Assembly: GCF_000332175.1 (NCBI RefSeq)
Contig: NZ_KB235910.1
Coordinates: 435,278 to 499,277 of the forward strand
DNA: 64,000 bases
Source: Pseudanabaena sp. PCC 6802
GTDB lineage: Bacteria; Cyanobacteriota; Cyanobacteriia; Pseudanabaenales; Pseudanabaenaceae
Direction of reading: 5' to 3'
Shown here: positions 4,808 to 11,385 of the stretch, one piece after another
How the letters are laid out: each line of letters opens with the position of its first letter
Numbering within the stretch: position 1 is the stretch's first letter
Program-made: the position numbers and the translations under genes
The notes under the pieces: model-generated
What the model was told of the DNA's origin: nothing
Seen by the model: the letters and a program-made list of their open reading frames with translations, nothing else
Databases searched by the model: none

Positions 4808-4906
4808 ACCTAATTTCCTGTCCAGCAAATCTTAAAACTGTCGAATGGCTCCAGTTTAGCTCTAGTTGACAGCACTACCTAGAAATAAATCCTGAAATTG
4901 CCATAA

Positions 4907-5380
4907 AATTACGCTTTGACTTTCTCCTTTAAAAACCTTGTGAGATTTCCCAACAAACCCAACTGACTTTCCCCGAAGTAAAACCTGTTTGTGACAGGGA
5001 ATTTGCTTGCATCGCAGGTGTTTTTTTGCGCGAGCTATAGCGTTTTTCAGATCGGAAAGATTAGGGGGTTTGGGGGCGTTGCCCCCAAGAAGGGGTTCCA
5101 CCCCTTCACCCCAAAAATAAAACCTGTTCTCAATTGAAAAACGCTATAGGTATTAAAAGAAGTTCGTCACCTAAACCAATCACGATCGAATTAAAAGCTA
5201 TCTTTTGTACCTCAAAGGCTGAAACGTTTAGTTCGGTGGATATTTGACTTAAAGATTTCTGTCCATTGGCAGCTTGAAATAATTTCAACTCCAGAGGGTT
5301 TAATTTGACTAGCAAACCAGAACCTACCCCTGGGAGTTTATTATCAAGTACCTGACAAAATTGAGTCCAGCGATCGACTG
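4907..5380 (-). pseudogene. Decayed partial copy of the DUF4388 gene, interrupted by a MITE
   Basis: This stretch is a diverged duplicate of the 3' third of the intact DUF4388 gene at 6538-7401. Long identities include PLELKLFQAANGQKSLSQI and KIAF-IVIGL-DELLLIP on the protein level. Relative to the intact copy it has lost about 25 bp around the GNMDLPNLT segment and carries a one-base deletion near the 3' end. A family A element is inserted in it at 5038-5146. The N-terminal two thirds are missing, so no functional protein is expected. Confidence 0.8.
5038..5146. mobile_element. MITE-like element, family A copy 2, with TA target duplication
   Basis: 109 bp, starting TAGCGTTTTTCA and ending TGAAAAACGCTA, flanked by TA at 5036-5037 and 5147-5148. 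The intact paralogue reads GAGCTAGGTATT at about 6661-6672, with a single TA and no insert. The two copies therefore form a filled-site and empty-site pair. A TA duplication fits IS630/Tc1-mariner transposition; the mobilising transposase is not in the window. Confidence 0.85.
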
Positions 5381-5588: not shown

Positions 5589-6149
5589 CTACGAAGCCAT
5601 CGTATTGGCACCAGTAGCGATCAGCCGACGGAACAAGCCTGCCGTCCAGCCAGTTTCTTTCAAAACAGCCGCCGACGAAACTTCGATGTAGGCTTGCTCG
5701 ATAAATGCCAGGTCGATCATGCAAATTTTACTCAGAGACTCTCTGAGATCTTCAGGCTTGCCGCTACTCTTGAGTAGTTTCGTCACTTCCCGCACCACAG
5801 TTGCCATTGCTGGAACGACGTGTTCGGGACCAATGCCAATTTTGACGTGAACCAGACCGATGCGCCAGCGACGTTCGGCATAGCTTTTTCCCCAATCGTC
5901 CATGCCAGTAAACATCTCGTGAAACCATTGAACGAAGGTTTCGCGCAAACGGTGAATGCGTCCTTCCGTTTCTGTTAAGATTGCATTCATTTCCGGGTCT
6001 TTCTGTAGATAGCCATAAAAGCAATCAGCCATAGCAGGAGCGATTTCTTTGCCCCAATCAGCGTTAGCCTTTAGTAGAGATTTATCTTCGGCATTAAGCT
6101 CCGTCCTTCTCTCCAACGTTTGGAGAAACTGATGAGGATCTGAAACCAT
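5589..6149 (-). CDS. Protoglobin-type single-domain sensor globin
   Basis: 186 residues matching the protoglobin/globin-coupled-sensor globin domain, which binds heme and senses O2, NO or CO. The key segment is RIGLVHVKIGIGPEHVVPAM, where H101 is the expected proximal heme ligand. W and F residues at about 74-80 (FVQWFHEMF) fit the heme pocket. No methyl-accepting, kinase or GGDEF output domain is attached, so any signal must pass to a separate partner. AAGGA upstream of ATG supports the start. Downstream of the gene is the DUF4388 pseudogene, and upstream lies the DUF4388/GTPase/Roadblock/V4R cluster on the same strand. A role as its gas-sensing input is an inference from position. Confidence 0.85.
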   Translation of the reverse strand: MVSDPHQFLQTLERRTELNAEDKSLLKANADWGKEIAPAMADCFYGYLQKDPEMNAILTETEGRIHRLRETFVQWFHEMFTGMDDWGKSYAERRWRIGLVHVKIGIGPEHVVPAMATVVREVTKLLKSSGKPEDLRESLSKICMIDLAFIEQAYIEVSSAAVLKETGWTAGLFRRLIATGANTMAS

Positions 6150-6383
6150 ACTTTTTGCTTCCTTAACTGAAATATCTCTGATATTAAATGTTTATAGATA
6201 ATTTGTCAAAAAGACTCCACATCTTCAGTAATTCCAAATCCAAAATCTGACAGTCATGAAACTCTTACACCAAGAGAAGTTTATAACTTTTGATGTTTTG
6301 TCCGATCTCTGAAATGACCTAAAATCATTCCAAATTGGGAATTGCTACCACATCTTTACATTTACTGATTTTTTATGTTTTTT

Positions 6384-6452
6384 TAATTGAGAACAGGTTT
6401 TATTGACGGGGTGAAGGGGTTCCACCCCTTCTTGGGGGCAACGCCACCACGC
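6384..6452. repeat. Truncated family A repeat
   Basis: One end of a family A element (TTGAGAACAGGTTTTATTG, then GGGGTGAAGGGGTTCCACCC and TTGGGGGCAACGCC) without its outer inverted repeats. It lies in the 388-base gap between the globin and DUF4388 genes, in which nothing else was recognised besides possible promoter sequence upstream of the globin gene. Confidence 0.6.
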
Positions 6453-6537
6453 AGAGGAGGCAGGGCGGACTTGAGTCGAGCAATATTAGCCCGTGCGATA
6501 CTGCCACAGACCGGCTGTAGTAATTAAGAGATAAATA

Positions 6538-7401
6538 CTATGCTCTGACTTTATCCTTTAAAAACCTTGTGAGATTTCCCAACAAACCCGAACTGACTTT
6601 CCCTGAAGTAGAACCTGTTTGTGATGAGGAATTTGCTTGCATCGCAGGTGTTTTTTTGCGCGAGCTAGGTATTAAAAGAAGTTCGTCAACTAAACCAATC
6701 ACGATCAAACTAAAAGCTATCTTTTGCACCTCAAAGTCTGAAATGTTTAGTTCGATAGCTATTTGACTTAAAGATTTCTGTCCATTAGCAGCTTGAAATA
6801 ATTTCAACTCCAGAGGGGTTAAATTGGGTAAATCCATATTACCTGGTTTGACTAGCAAACCCGAACCTAACCCTGGGAGTTTATTAGTCAAGTGCGTCCA
6901 ATCTTCCAGCGATCGCAAACCGCTTAAGTTAATATCGCGCATTGTTACGTGCAGGCCAGTTAACTCTAAATGAGAAGGAAACACCTTATCGTTAAACGTA
7001 TAAATGCCCTCACGTAGGGCAAACAATTTGGTGATAGGATGAATTACTTGCAAATCAAACAGGAGCGCTACTTGTTGAGGTGTAAGTAAATTTTCCTCCC
7101 GGAGGTATCGCCCTAGTGGAACTGACAAAGTTTGCTTAGATTGCACCTTATGTAGTGCTGCGATTGTGGGAATTTCCAGTTCAAATGAATCTTTGATCAG
7201 ATCGATCAGACCTTGTTTTTGCGAGGCATTAGCTACGGCAACAATTCTCCCATTCTCAAACCAAATCTGACCATATCTTTTAAATGCTTGAGTCTCAGCC
7301 TGATAGCTGTTGATGATAAGCATTCCAGTCCTTTTGCCCTGGTCTAAAACCTTGAAAACCTCCGGCAAGGATAAATCTTCTATCTTTCCAATTAGTGCCA
7401 T
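6538..7401 (-). CDS. DUF4388 (PatA N-terminal-like) protein
   Basis: 287 residues. The N-terminus MALIGKIEDLSLPEVFKVLDQGKRTGMLII with FENGRIVAV is the DUF4388 fold, found at the N-terminus of PatA/PixG regulators and beside small GTPases. The central and C-terminal parts (about 100-240) contain the segment LTPLELKLFQAANGQKSLSQIAIEL, which resembles a winged-helix-like module. The tail is Ser-rich and ends in a basic helix (LTRFLKDKVRA). Unlike the PatA paralogue at 26533 it has no receiver domain. AAGGAG just upstream of ATG gives a firm start. It follows the GTPase gene by 104 bases on the same strand, which suggests one transcript. Its role is probably adaptor-like; this is inferred. Confidence 0.8.
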   Translation of the reverse strand: MALIGKIEDLSLPEVFKVLDQGKRTGMLIINSYQAETQAFKRYGQIWFENGRIVAVANASQKQGLIDLIKDSFELEIPTIAALHKVQSKQTLSVPLGRYLREENLLTPQQVALLFDLQVIHPITKLFALREGIYTFNDKVFPSHLELTGLHVTMRDINLSGLRSLEDWTHLTNKLPGLGSGLLVKPGNMDLPNLTPLELKLFQAANGQKSLSQIAIELNISDFEVQKIAFSLIVIGLVDELLLIPSSRKKTPAMQANSSSQTGSTSGKVSSGLLGNLTRFLKDKVRA

Positions 7402-7505: not shown

Positions 7506-8045
7506 TCAGATAAGGCTCGGTTGCATGCTACCCTCAAGCAAGGTAATCAGTGCTTGAGCCACTGAGCCTGGATCGGTAGCATCAACGGCGACGACCAATG
7601 CTTCCCGATCGTCGTCATTAAGTCCTAACGCAATTGCAACGTTTTCTACACTCCAGGCATCCGAAGAATCTGTGTGAGTAACACCAACCAGCATGGGAAT
7701 ATCCGCACGTTCTCTCATAAAACTCATAATCTGATATGCATACCGAAACTCATAAGGTCGGTGAGCTGCAACTAAAAGAATAAGGCCGTGAGCCTTAGTA
7801 ATCAACATATCCCAAATAAAATCAAACCGATCTTGTCCCGGCGTACCGTAGAGGTGCAATACCTGATCGGGGCCGAATTGCAAGCGTCCAAAATCAAAAG
7901 CTATTGTCGTCTGCTGTTTGAGTAAAGCAGTATCATCTGTGGCTTTGCGATCGGTATCGACCACCTCAATTTCACTGATCGATCGAATAAAGGTCGATTT
8001 TCCTGCTCCCACCGGACCAGTTATTACTAAGCGAATTACTTCCAT
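7506..8045 (-). CDS. MglA/Rag-like small GTPase
   Basis: 179 residues, a stand-alone Ras-superfamily GTPase of the prokaryotic group that pairs with Roadblock proteins. Walker A is GPVGAGKST (residues 10-18). The switch I threonines are in LKQQTTIAFDFG, the G3 motif is YGTPGQDRF (66-74), and the G4 position is THTD (123-126) in place of NKxD, which is usual in this group. There is no lipid-anchor cysteine at the C-terminus. The Roadblock genes just upstream are the expected regulators or GAPs by analogy with MglA/MglB. A family A element (8137-8265) separates it from Roadblock copy 1. The effector process is unknown; polarity or motility control would be an analogy only. Confidence 0.87.
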   Translation of the reverse strand: MEVIRLVITGPVGAGKSTFIRSISEIEVVDTDRKATDDTALLKQQTTIAFDFGRLQFGPDQVLHLYGTPGQDRFDFIWDMLITKAHGLILLVAAHRPYEFRYAYQIMSFMRERADIPMLVGVTHTDSSDAWSVENVAIALGLNDDDREALVVAVDATDPGSVAQALITLLEGSMQPSLI

Positions 8046-8136
8046 GACTTGCGATAAATTAAAGTAATAGTAAAGTAAAAAAGCTAAATTAGGGAGAATA
8101 TTCTCCTCAAGCTTTCTTCCACAAATCTTTGAAGCA

Positions 8137-8265
8137 TAGCGTTTTTCAATTGAGAACGGGTTGTGTTGACGGAATGAAGTGGGGAGCCCCCAAGACCGCC
8201 CTAACTCCCTTGTCTTGGGGGCAATATCTCCAAACCACTACTCTTTGCCGATGTGAAAACCGCTA
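8137..8265. mobile_element. MITE-like element, family A copy 4
   Basis: About 129 bp with ends TAGCGTTTTTCA and GTGAAAACCGCTA. The interior has diverged and carries CCCCCAAGACCGCC and CTTGTCTTGGGGGC segments. The right flank is TA, the left CA. It lies in the 283-base gap between the GTPase and Roadblock copy 1 and may affect their co-transcription. Apparent ORFs across it are artefacts of the repeat. Confidence 0.7.
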
Positions 8266-8328
8266 TAACACCTTGGGCAACACCAAATCCTGGTTGATTA
8301 ACCGCTCTTCACCCAAGGTACTGAGCTT

Positions 8329-8721
8329 CTACGCGACGGCAGAAATAGTGGGTTGAATTGCTGTTTTGAGAGTAGAAACAACTTGTTTGATCTCTAACAT
8401 CAACACCCCTTGCTTCGCATTTTTATTCGCGAGTACGAGGAGAACAGCGTCATCAGCGCAACTAACGAGAATTGCATACCCCTGATCGCCCTCAATCATA
8501 ATGCGATCGATCGTACCTCTTGATAGCTCGCGACCGATGCGTTCGCCTAAGGACAAAATAGCGGCTGTCATTGCGGCGACTCTCTCTTCGTCCATCGAGC
8601 CAGGGATGCTAGTTGCTAGAGGTAAGCCATCCGGTGTCACAACTGCGGCACCCTGGATATCGCTAGTGGAAGTGACAAATTGTTGTAAGGTATTGTTGAT
8701 TTTACCTATGTTGATTCCCAT
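8329..8721 (-). CDS. Roadblock/LC7 domain protein, copy 1
   Basis: 130 residues that are entirely a Roadblock/LC7 (MglB-like) fold: an N-terminal helix (INNTLQQFVTSTSDIQGAAVV), a central helix (ERVAAMTAAILSLGERIGREL) and the strand VSCADDAVLLVLANKNAKQG. Such homodimers bind small GTPases as GAPs or adaptors. The strong AAGGA site 8 bases before ATG fixes the start. The protein is identical, residue for residue, to copy 2 at 9727-10119, with only a few silent differences, so the duplication is recent or kept homogeneous by gene conversion. It lies upstream of the GTPase on the same strand. Confidence 0.9.
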   Translation of the reverse strand: MGINIGKINNTLQQFVTSTSDIQGAAVVTPDGLPLATSIPGSMDEERVAAMTAAILSLGERIGRELSRGTIDRIMIEGDQGYAILVSCADDAVLLVLANKNAKQGVLMLEIKQVVSTLKTAIQPTISAVA

Positions 8722-8812
8722 AATTTAGTTCCTTTGATTAGTTCCTGGTTGGTTAGTGAATAGCGGACAGAGTTTTGGTCTTGTCAGTTAAGAAAACTTG
8801 TTAGCCCAATAA

Positions 8813-9286
8813 TTAGCCCAAAGTTTCAAATTCGATTACGTCATGGGTGCCACCACGCAGCACGGACTCTACTTGCTTGCCACGCAGGCGCTTGCCAGTG
8901 AGGGCTTCTAAGGCACCTTGCACTGCACCCATCGTATAGGTAAGTTGACGAGGAGAACCCTGCGATTCTCCGCTCGAACAAATTGTTTCGCGGCAATAAA
9001 CTCTGATGGTATCGCCAAAGTCAGCTTTGTCAATCAGACACAAGCGAGTTCCATCTTTGCCCAACGCTTTCTGAATTAGTGGAATAGCTGCTTCTGGCGA
9101 ACCTTGAGACAACCCAAGGCTTTCCACAAGTTGTTTACCTCTTTGCCTCCCAGCCGAAATTAATGCAATTGCAGCAGCCTTCTCTCCTAAAGCCTCTTCT
9201 GCTCCTGTAACCATTGCTTTGAAGCAAACGATACTACTGAAATCGCCTAACTCAGGGCGTTGTAATGTAGCGGTAGCGGTAGACAA
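8813..9286 (-). CDS. V4R-like domain protein, copy 1
   Basis: About 157 residues, starting at TTG 9286 with AAGGAG about 8 bases upstream. The region before it is not conserved with copy 2, so a longer start is unlikely. The layout (EKAAAIALISAGRQRGKQLVESLGL, then IRVYCRETICSSGE, then GAVQGALEALTGKRLRGKQVESVLRGGTHDVIEFE) resembles V4R (4-vinyl-reductase) small-molecule-binding domains, which end in a G-x-x-x-G helix and a strand pair. The Cys residues usual at the end of V4R are absent; two lie instead in CRETIC. The ligand is unknown. It precedes Roadblock copy 1 by 91 bases on the same strand, and the pair is duplicated upstream. Confidence 0.65.
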   Translation of the reverse strand: MSTATATLQRPELGDFSSIVCFKAMVTGAEEALGEKAAAIALISAGRQRGKQLVESLGLSQGSPEAAIPLIQKALGKDGTRLCLIDKADFGDTIRVYCRETICSSGESQGSPRQLTYTMGAVQGALEALTGKRLRGKQVESVLRGGTHDVIEFETLG

Positions 9287-9514
9287 TGTCAATCTCCTTG
9301 TATAACTAAAAAAATTTATTTGGGATAGAGAATCATTTCCCTTTAACACAACTGCTATAGAGAACTCCCTATCCCCTTACACAAAACGATGATACCCACG
9401 CGCAAAAAAAAATATCTCTGCGACTTAACAAAAGTTGACAAACTTAATCTAGGGGAATTCTAGAGGGAGGACTGGAGTTTTTTAGTTGTAGCCTATAGAG
9501 TTTTTTGCAGTCTA

Positions 9515-9536
9515 AGGTTCTCGATGGCTAGAACCT
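9515..9536. promoter_or_regulatory. Conserved inverted repeat upstream of V4R copy 1
   Basis: A perfect 7-bp inverted repeat, AGGTTCT and AGAACCT, around CGATGGCT. The same 22 bases recur at 10907-10928 upstream of V4R copy 2, although the neighbouring sequence has drifted. The rest of the 440-base gap 9287-9726 is the diverged upstream part of the duplication unit and the end of the next unit, with no ORF. Confidence 0.45.
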
Positions 9537-9726
9537 ATGTTTACGAGTGTTCGCGAGACACATTTATCCATCAATAGTCAGACAATTTTAAACTGCTAAG
9601 GGATTTGCGTAAATAAATATCCTTATTGTTAAGATGCTGTTAGCGACAGCGTAACGCATCAGCAAACTTAGGATTGGTACATTAAAACGCTAGTCCCTAG
9701 GTCCCGCCACCCAAGGTGCTGAGCTT

Positions 9727-10119
9727 CTACGCGACGGCAGAAATAGTGGGTTGAATTGCTGTTTTGAGAGTAGAAACAACTTGTTTGATCTCTAACATCA
9801 ACACCCCTTGCTTCGCATTTTTATTCGCGAGTACGAGGAGAACAGCGTCATCAGCGCAACTAACGAGAATTGCATACCCCTGATCGCCCTCAATCATAAT
9901 GCGATCGATCGTACCTCTTGATAGCTCGCGACCGATGCGTTCGCCTAAGGACAAAATAGCGGCTGTCATGGCAGCAACTCTTTCTTCGTCCATCGAGCCG
10001 GGGATGCTAGTTGCTAGAGGTAAGCCATCCGGTGTCACAACTGCGGCACCCTGGATATCGCTAGTGGAAGTGACAAATTGTTGTAAGGTATTGTTGATTT
10101 TACCTATGTTGATTCCCAT
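9727..10119 (-). CDS. Roadblock/LC7 domain protein, copy 2
   Basis: The protein is identical over all 130 residues to the Roadblock/LC7 gene at 8329-8721, and the DNA differs at only a few positions (for example silent changes in the AAMTAAI and ERVAAM codons). The same AAGGA ribosome-binding site precedes ATG. It is the second gene of the upstream duplicated unit, which runs from about 9708 to 10985. It could form the same homodimer as copy 1, so the duplication may mainly raise dosage or separate regulation. An MglB-like role with the small GTPase at 7506-8045 is inferred from family and context. Confidence 0.9.
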   Translation of the reverse strand: MGINIGKINNTLQQFVTSTSDIQGAAVVTPDGLPLATSIPGSMDEERVAAMTAAILSLGERIGRELSRGTIDRIMIEGDQGYAILVSCADDAVLLVLANKNAKQGVLMLEIKQVVSTLKTAIQPTISAVA

Positions 10120-10222
10120 AATTTAATTCCTTTGATTAGTTCCTGGTTGGTTAGTGAATAGCGGACAGAGTTTTGGTCTTGTCAGTTGAGAAAACTTGTT
10201 AGCCCAATTGTTGGCCCAATTG

Positions 10223-10696
10223 TTAGCCCAAAGTTTCAAACTCGATTACGTCATGGGTGCCACCACGCAGCACGGACTCTACTTGCTTGCCGCGCAGGCG
10301 CTTGCCAGTGAGGGCTTCTAAGGCACCTTGCACTGCACCCATCGTATAGGTAAGTTGACGAGGAGAACCCTGCGGTTCTCCACTCGAACAAATTGTTTCC
10401 CGGCAATAAACTCTGATGGTATCGCCAAATTCTGCCTTGTCAATCAGACATAGGCGAGTTCCATCTTTGCCCAGCGCTTTCTGCATCAGTGGGATAGCTG
10501 ATTCTGCTGAACCTTGAGACAACCCAAGGCTTTCTACGAGTTGTTTACCTCTTTGCCTCCCAGCCGAAATTAATGTAATTGCAGCAGCCTTCTCTCCTAA
10601 AGCCTCTTCTGCTCCTACAACCATTGCTTTGAAGCAAACGATACTACTGAAATCCCCTAACTCAGGGCGTTGCAATGTAACTGTAGCGGTAGACAC
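10223..10696 (-). CDS. V4R-like domain protein, copy 2
   Basis: About 157 residues, closely related to copy 1 with roughly a dozen substitutions (for example SAESAIPLMQ against SPEAAIPLIQ). The start is GTG at 10696, with AAGGAG 8 bases upstream, at the position where copy 1 uses TTG. It is the first gene of the whole minus-strand cluster. Unlike the Roadblock partner, which is unchanged at the protein level, this gene has diverged, so the two sensors may be drifting toward different ligands or partners. The V4R assignment rests on fold-like motifs only. Confidence 0.65.
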   Translation of the reverse strand: MSTATVTLQRPELGDFSSIVCFKAMVVGAEEALGEKAAAITLISAGRQRGKQLVESLGLSQGSAESAIPLMQKALGKDGTRLCLIDKAEFGDTIRVYCRETICSSGEPQGSPRQLTYTMGAVQGALEALTGKRLRGKQVESVLRGGTHDVIEFETLG

Positions 10697-11385
10697 TATC
10701 AATACTCCTTGTATAACTACAAAAATTACTGAGGATAGAGAATTATTTCCTCTTAACAAAACTGCTATAGAGAAATCCTTTACCCTTACAGAAAAGGATG
10801 GTACCCACGTGCAAAAAAATACTTCTGGGGCTTAATAAAAGTTGACAATCCTATTTAAGGAGGAGGACTGGAGTTTTTTAGTTGTAGCCCGTAAGGCTGC
10901 AGTCTAAGGTTCTCGATGGCTAGAACCTATGTTTGCGAGACTCACTCGATCGTCAATCGTCCGGACGCTTTTAAACTGCTAACGGTAGAATGCAGGTTTC
11001 ACCCTCCTTAATCTTAATGAGGTTAGATGCCAACGATTAGAATACGAGTAGAATACGAGCTTAATCTTAATGAGGTCAGATGGTAACAATAGAATAAGAG
11101 TTTCAGCTATTGTCTCAACAAATGTCCGAAGTGTTGACCATAATAATAGCACAGAGAAAATTTTAGTCTATGTCGTCTTAACCTCAAATTCCCAAATAAG
11201 GGTGAAGCTTTTGTGAGTCTAAAAGCCTTGTTAAAACCACTTGCCTTTCCAAATTGATAGTGATGCAGGATATCCAGATCGGTCTACTTATCAAGCGATT
11301 TGAGTTTGGTGGCGCTGTTCTGATATCATTTTCAGCGATCGGGAACATTACCTAATTCCTCAGTCATGGCAAAGCCAACTTTCAG
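10697..11385. other. Intergenic region with regulatory sequence of the signalling cluster
   Basis: A gap of 689 bases between divergent genes. It holds the second copy of the AGGTTCT/AGAACCT inverted repeat at 10907-10928 and two direct repeats of CTTAATCTTAATGAGGT(C/T)AGATG near 11010-11082. No ORF with coding character was seen. It probably contains the promoter for the minus-strand cluster and for the lipoprotein gene on the plus strand. Confidence 0.5.

Follow-up and report, generated by a model that had tools for sequence, protein, structure and literature searches.

The 64,000-nucleotide (nt) stretch of Pseudanabaena sp. PCC 6802 analyzed here (positions 435,278 to 499,277 of NZ_KB235910.1, contig C1 of the 5.6 Mb genome; hereafter the window) carries on its minus strand a small-GTPase gene cluster in which a pair of genes is present twice. 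One gene of the pair encodes a protein of predicted V4R/Bet3 fold (V) and the other a Roadblock/LC7 protein (Roadblock, or R). Read along that strand, the genes are V, Roadblock, V, Roadblock, small GTPase, DUF4388, protoglobin and a fragment of a second DUF4388 gene. The V–Roadblock unit, of 1.27–1.29 kb, forms two direct tandem copies, upstream (u) and downstream (d), with the following features:

9708-10980, minus strand: upstream copy of the unit (leader, V, Roadblock), 1,273 nt between the limits of homology
8310-9597, minus strand: downstream copy of the unit (leader, V, Roadblock), 1,288 nt between the limits of homology
10223-10696, minus strand: V_u, predicted V4R/Bet3-fold protein, GTG start (10759 in the open reading frame list); fold modelled on V_d
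8813-9286, minus strand: V_d, predicted V4R/Bet3-fold protein, TTG start (9349 in the open reading frame list); fold modelled
9727-10119, minus strand: R_u, Roadblock/LC7 protein of 130 residues (PF03259), from open reading frame and profile match
8329-8721, minus strand: R_d, Roadblock/LC7 protein identical to R_u, from open reading frame and profile match
8310-8964, minus strand: low-divergence block (presumed converted) of the downstream copy; partner at about 9708-10374 in the upstream copy
8572-8602, minus strand: 31-nt island with all five Roadblock synonymous differences; partner at 9970-10000

The likeness of the two copies is far beyond chance. Their matched pieces are spaced 1,392–1,410 nt from start to start, about 110 nt without homology separate them, and outside 9708-10980 and 8310-9597 no convincing alignment between the copies was found. 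The V–Roadblock pair has been duplicated in tandem, as had been proposed in an earlier reading of the stretch made from the sequence alone (the sequence-only reading). The V starts (TTG at 9286, GTG at 10696) were picked by eye from the adjoining AAGGAG and the starts used in relatives, giving genes shorter than the listed open reading frames. R_u and R_d are the only two PF03259 genes of the genome, with a profile match of 72.4 bits over residues 9–98 against a cut-off of 23. Promoter and terminator scans and RNA folds of the leaders gave nothing reliable. Just upstream of the duplicated units, at 11007-11090, a 31-nt sequence recurs after 53 nt with 87% identity.

The two copies have not diverged evenly. 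R_u and R_d encode the same 130 amino acids and differ at 5 nt, all synonymous and all at positions 120–150 of the coding sequence; V_u and V_d differ at 26 of 468 nt and share 148 of 156 residues (non-synonymous divergence, dN, 0.026; synonymous divergence, dS, 0.164). The leaders are about 84–85% identical (20 differences in 126 aligned sites; 24 in 159) and contain insertions and deletions as well, and the V–Roadblock spacer is 95.6% identical (4 differences in 91 sites). These figures agree with the sequence-only reading in its description of Roadblock proteins identical over 130 residues, of V4R-like proteins that have begun to differ and, as regards the leaders, of more diverged spacers.

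Synonymous differences are also unequal between the two gene pairs, numbering 17 in 115.5 sites of V and 5 in 94.3 sites of Roadblock (Fisher P 0.04). When V is divided between codons 107 and 108, its two parts have 15 in 77.2 sites and 2 in 38.3, and the first part differs from the rest with P 0.0019, a value that rests on a border chosen after the data were seen. Expressed as dS, V codons 1–107 stand at 0.225, the remainder of V at 0.054 and Roadblock at 0.055. Over all sites, the quiet block holds 12 differences in 653 sites and V codons 1–107 hold 24 in 321; the longest identical run is 251 nt (974 sites, 36 differences; permutation P 0.0006), and a changepoint scan sets the border at 8965, in V codon 107 (P 0.0006). 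Restricted to the 271 degenerate codons with unchanged amino acid, the scan sets it after Roadblock codon 50 (P 0.0036), and the longest unchanged run is 77 codons (P 0.014). Five changes are packed into 31 nt within the quiet block (clustering P 0.010).

Gene borders do not confine the quiet block: it includes the V–Roadblock spacer but not the leader, and extends from a point within V, through the spacer, to 20 nt beyond the Roadblock stop, where the duplication itself ends. Thus the contrast drawn earlier between the two genes does not hold as such, the boundary falling inside V in the all-site test and inside Roadblock in the synonymous-only test. Divergence is uneven beyond what protein constraint accounts for, because the sameness extends to synonymous and non-coding sites, and the exact border depends on the test.

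The mosaic is best fitted by gene conversion acting on an older duplication. Gene conversion had been raised in the sequence-only reading and gains support from the unequal synonymous differences and both changepoint scans. The V–Roadblock pair of a small-GTPase control cluster was duplicated in tandem and its copies would then have diverged, after which a homologous exchange (gene conversion or unequal crossing-over) would have overwritten about 650 nt, from the 3'-terminal third of V through the spacer and over most of Roadblock; the 31-nt stretch in Roadblock would have escaped conversion and remained as an island. Taken together, a GTPase cluster with a tandem V–Roadblock duplication, a later exchange over about 650 nt, purifying selection on both proteins and putative control of the GTPase by V and Roadblock make up a reading to which we give a probability of about 0.66.

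Copy number was surveyed in 58 genomes, and tandem V genes were found in four of them and two Roadblock genes within about 2 kb in five, PCC 6802 being counted in both figures. Tandem V–Roadblock copies occur also in genomes G017 and G024; two V genes are present in G036, and G014 and G021 show V, Roadblock, globin and Roadblock in that order. Divergence was compared among 17 units, with 16 pairs having a V dS below 0.9; the Roadblock values given for the G024 pair are from sequences cut at the first stop, and the other quoted pairs, where recomputed in this way, kept their values. Between separate Pseudanabaenaceae genomes, the dS of V codons 1–107 is 0.20–0.26 in four of five pairs and 0.07 in the fifth. 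Because V codons 1–107 of the window pair are as diverged as this, the earlier description of the duplication as recent is doubtful, and the event seems older than its apparent age. In G024 identical and divergent stretches alternate along the tandem pair, whose 3' limit lies about 6 nt past the Roadblock stop, compared with 20 nt in the window pair. The G024 V copies group in the V tree with the G017 upstream copy and leave the G017 downstream V outside, so that the G017/G024 duplication predates the split of these genomes, despite the near-alike G024 copies.

The alternative that survives best, although it is unlikely, is a single duplication without exchange, in which chance and selection (on protein, codons or RNA) have limited change in Roadblock and the 3' end of V. 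Of the 16 pairs, 10 do have a Roadblock dN lower than their V dN (one is a tie and five are reversed, some of the reversed rows having included codons past the stop), and three of five separate-genome pairs likewise have a Roadblock to V 5' synonymous ratio below 1 (0.68, 0.80 and 0.81; the others give 1.17 and 2.87). The window pair, however, has a ratio of 0.24, under all five, and the runs and changepoint tests (P 0.0001–0.014), the packing of five synonymous changes within 31 nt and the near-identity of the spacer next to a diverged leader all argue for an exchange. Several observations weigh on the other side. The counts are small (5 versus 17 synonymous differences) and the border moves from V codon 107 to Roadblock codon 50 with the test used; homogenisation is not a general feature, the Roadblock pairs having dS of 1.36 in G014 and 1.29 in G021 and the G024 Roadblock dS of 0.151 not being below its V dS of 0.119, so that exchange does not single out Roadblock; and the structural model of V is of moderate confidence (predicted local distance difference test score, pLDDT, 68).

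A further possibility, which we regard as quite improbable, is that recombination with another strain introduced the island or the divergent 5' part of V, which would then not be an unconverted remnant of old divergence. Mosaics between genomes do occur at this locus: V dS is 0.045 and Roadblock dS 0.198 between L077 and L076 (G029 and G015), and the values are 0.21 and 0.91 between L078 and L065 (G032 and the G017 upstream unit), the 0.91 being slightly off because the G017 Roadblock match ran past the stop codon. Such unlike divergence of V and Roadblock suggests recombination between species at the locus. In the window, however, the leader, the V 5' part and the island are all substantially diverged, as expected from one old duplication, and a donor was not found among the 58 genomes.

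Duplication followed by exchange, the preferred reading, goes together with purifying selection on both proteins, Roadblock being held most tightly to judge from dN/dS and the relatives. That V has instead been diversifying or relaxed since the duplication, as the sequence-only reading had it, so that its copies would sense different ligands, is very improbable: all nine non-synonymous changes of the two gene pairs do sit in V, but its dN/dS of 0.16 is significantly below neutrality (P 7e-6) and like that of the other pairs (0.05–0.33), conserved positions are unchanged, and the relatives' state is split between the copies. Given the synonymous counts, the amino-acid excess in V over Roadblock is not significant (9:17 versus 0:5, P 0.29). 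Also, the eight residues that differ all lie at positions variable in the 47-sequence family (45 other V proteins), and neither copy consistently holds the state of the relatives there. V is thus under ordinary purifying selection. Faster evolution of one V copy was considered when a first tree placed all change on the downstream copy, and was dropped when a larger alignment gave mixed polarity.

Strong constraint on the Roadblock protein, also part of the earlier reading, holds generally. The G024 Roadblock pair has 12 synonymous differences and the same residue at 121 of 121 positions. The Roadblock paralogues of G014 and G021 (L067/L068), with a protoglobin gene in between, share 122 of 123 and 121 of 123 residues respectively, and reflect very strong protein constraint. 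The dS of about 1.3 in G014 and G021 and the 12 silent differences in G024 show how tightly the Roadblock protein is conserved without any contribution from homogenisation. The duplication in the window, an instance of ordinary molecular evolution, illustrates how identical proteins in tandem copies can mislead as to both age and selection.

V has no match in Pfam or NCBIfam, and none to Pfam V4R (PF02830) at E values up to 10. Identification by sequence match in the PDB was set aside, the best hits (E 0.25) being unrelated enzymes and not meaningful. An AlphaFold2 model of V_d, built from 10 sequences, matches MopR (5kbg; Z 13.6, 3.2 Å, 134 residues), Bet3–TPC6B (2cfh; Z 13.5, 3.3 Å, 136 residues) and the V4R protein MJ1460 (2oso; Z 11.8, 4.3 Å, 126 residues), with PoxR and DmpR also among the matches and BcsD (Z 11.8) and H-NOX (Z 8.8) in the same list; the best Foldseek match is likewise Bet3. 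By its match to these solved structures, the model has the V4R/Bet3 arrangement, a four-stranded sheet with helices on one face. Podar and colleagues describe as a Bet3/V4R trait glycine pairs three residues apart in two helices (PMC2253512), and in V the glycines G45/G49 and G119/G123 are invariant in 47 of 47 sequences, both pairs lying inside model helices. The H-NOX matches raised the idea of a heme sensor. A heme ligand would require histidine, and the idea was set aside, no histidine standing at any of the listed invariant positions of the 47 aligned V sequences.

On the model, V would belong to the V4R/Bet3 fold class while standing outside the Pfam V4R family, so that the 'V4R-like' label given earlier is upheld for the fold and not for family membership. 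The genome has only three PF02830 genes (L095, L096 and L097), and these true V4R proteins, unlike V, score with PF02830 and lie elsewhere, on contig C5. Profile comparison (hhalign) of V with the three gave a short, weak match (34 columns, probability 2.7%, E 0.017). Slr0144, Slr0147 and similar V4R proteins share the predicted fold class of V. Two of the three contig C5 genes adjoin genes reading like 2Fe-2S ferredoxins, an arrangement that we take to resemble the photosystem II-linked slr0144-slr0152 cluster.

Downstream of the duplicated units the cluster continues with:

7506-8045, minus strand: MglA-like small GTPase with GTPGQ G3 motif, from family match and motifs
6538-7401, minus strand: DUF4388 protein, which we take to be PATAN-type, from profile match
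5589-6149, minus strand: protoglobin, from profile match; linked to the same genes in relatives

The VGAGK, TT and GTPGQ motifs of the GTPase are conserved across 37 aligned GTPases, and its PDB match is MglA (3t12, E 6e-4). It has the P-loop, the Thr replacing Arg at G2 and the GTPGQ in G3 that characterise MglA Groups 2–5 (PMC4316618); at G4 its family reads THxD and not the [NT]KxD of Group 5. Both Roadblock copies contain TPDGLPLA, with what is probably the Asp-Gly pair that marks MglBs coupled to MglA Groups 2–5 in the same source. The 3' part of the DUF4388 gene is itself duplicated (6531-6893 versus 4903-5349, 83–92% DNA identity), the second piece being a fragment with an insertion beyond the protoglobin gene. 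A short repeat with inverted ends, resembling a miniature inverted-repeat transposable element, lies at 8136-8268, between the downstream Roadblock and the GTPase genes, and another copy lies inside the DUF4388 fragment; related pieces occur near 5036-5147 and 6379-6449, and the repeat is found in at least about 40 places in the genome (59 matching pieces).

Linkage of these genes extends well beyond the window. Among 26 V loci of the relatives, 22 have a Roadblock gene no more than about 1 kb away, the exceptions being in G033 (at a contig edge), G036 (two) and G054. A wider search over 386 genomes of the phylum detected V in 25, once as a split fragment; two split fragments of G121 were left out of the V loci, G291 and G428 were not among the fetched loci, and L060 and L064 were removed because they repeat G027 and G018. 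Of 20 more distant V loci taken from this search, 15 have Roadblock within the same 10–15 kb stretch, 14 the GTPase, 15 DUF4388 and 9 protoglobin, V being alone in 5. Gene order varies, from V-R-GTPase-DUF4388-globin (L107) to R-GTPase-DUF4388-V-globin (L100) and DUF4388-GTPase-R-globin-V (L103). Genes that stay together despite such reshuffling suggest a common task. V, Roadblock, MglA-like GTPase, DUF4388 and often protoglobin appear to form a conserved small-GTPase module, with V mostly next to Roadblock, and the V–Roadblock pair probably controls the small molecular switch protein. This module is of greater interest than the duplication, its V4R-fold and protoglobin partners being apparently undescribed: the literature consulted, mostly abstracts, yielded no account of a cyanobacterial V4R-fold/Roadblock/GTPase/protoglobin cluster.

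The following working is offered as a proposal from sequence, predicted fold and linkage. V would form a dimer of Bet3/V4R type that binds a small hydrophobic ligand, and Roadblock an MglB-like dimer; jointly they would determine the nucleotide-bound state of the neighbouring GTPase, the output of which would run through DUF4388, with protoglobin supplying a gas or redox input. Two V–Roadblock pairs would raise the dose of regulator relative to a single GTPase and permit slightly different V subunits. A V dimer and a Roadblock dimer on one GTPase would make a small bacterial analogue of the TRAPP Bet3/longin arrangement. Bolder, and on balance unlikely, is the idea that V, Roadblock and GTPase constitute one complex, a bacterial TRAPP/Ragulator counterpart in which the Bet3-fold subunit and the Roadblock dimer would drive the nucleotide cycle under gating by hydrophobic ligand and by protoglobin-sensed gas, with PATAN-type output.

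Among known systems, the module is close to the MglA/MglB systems of Myxococcus and Thermus, and to Group 5 with its PATAN neighbours (PMC4316618), in having a Roadblock gene beside a GTPGQ small GTPase and a DUF4388 neighbour. MglB, a Roadblock dimer, works on MglA as both GTPase-activating protein and guanine nucleotide exchange factor (GEF) (PMC11016934), and PATAN proteins near MglA and MglB have been described (PMC4316618). The module differs from these systems in its regular V4R-fold and frequent protoglobin partners and in THxD at G4. It also differs from the actinobacterial conservons (CvnA-D; PMC4316618), having no histidine kinase among its shared genes and V4R-fold, protoglobin and DUF4388 genes instead. 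With TRAPP and the Asgard TRAPPC3/Roadblock/GTPase set (PMC10933270) it shares a Bet3/V4R fold encoded along with Roadblock and a small GTPase; unlike TRAPP it is bacterial, has Roadblock in place of longin, and its GEF role is putative. Such genes reportedly do not, in general, sit in common operons in the Asgard MK-D1 genome (PMC10933270), whereas the cyanobacterial ones cluster. In eukaryotes, TRAPP and Ragulator bring together Bet3-fold, longin/Roadblock and small-GTPase components, and the Asgard counterparts are mostly unlinked; with a Bet3/V4R-fold gene, a Roadblock gene and a small GTPase kept together in shuffled order in many cyanobacteria, the bacterial cluster offers a small, testable system for the effect of a Bet3-fold protein on a GTPase, with protoglobin hinting at the signal.

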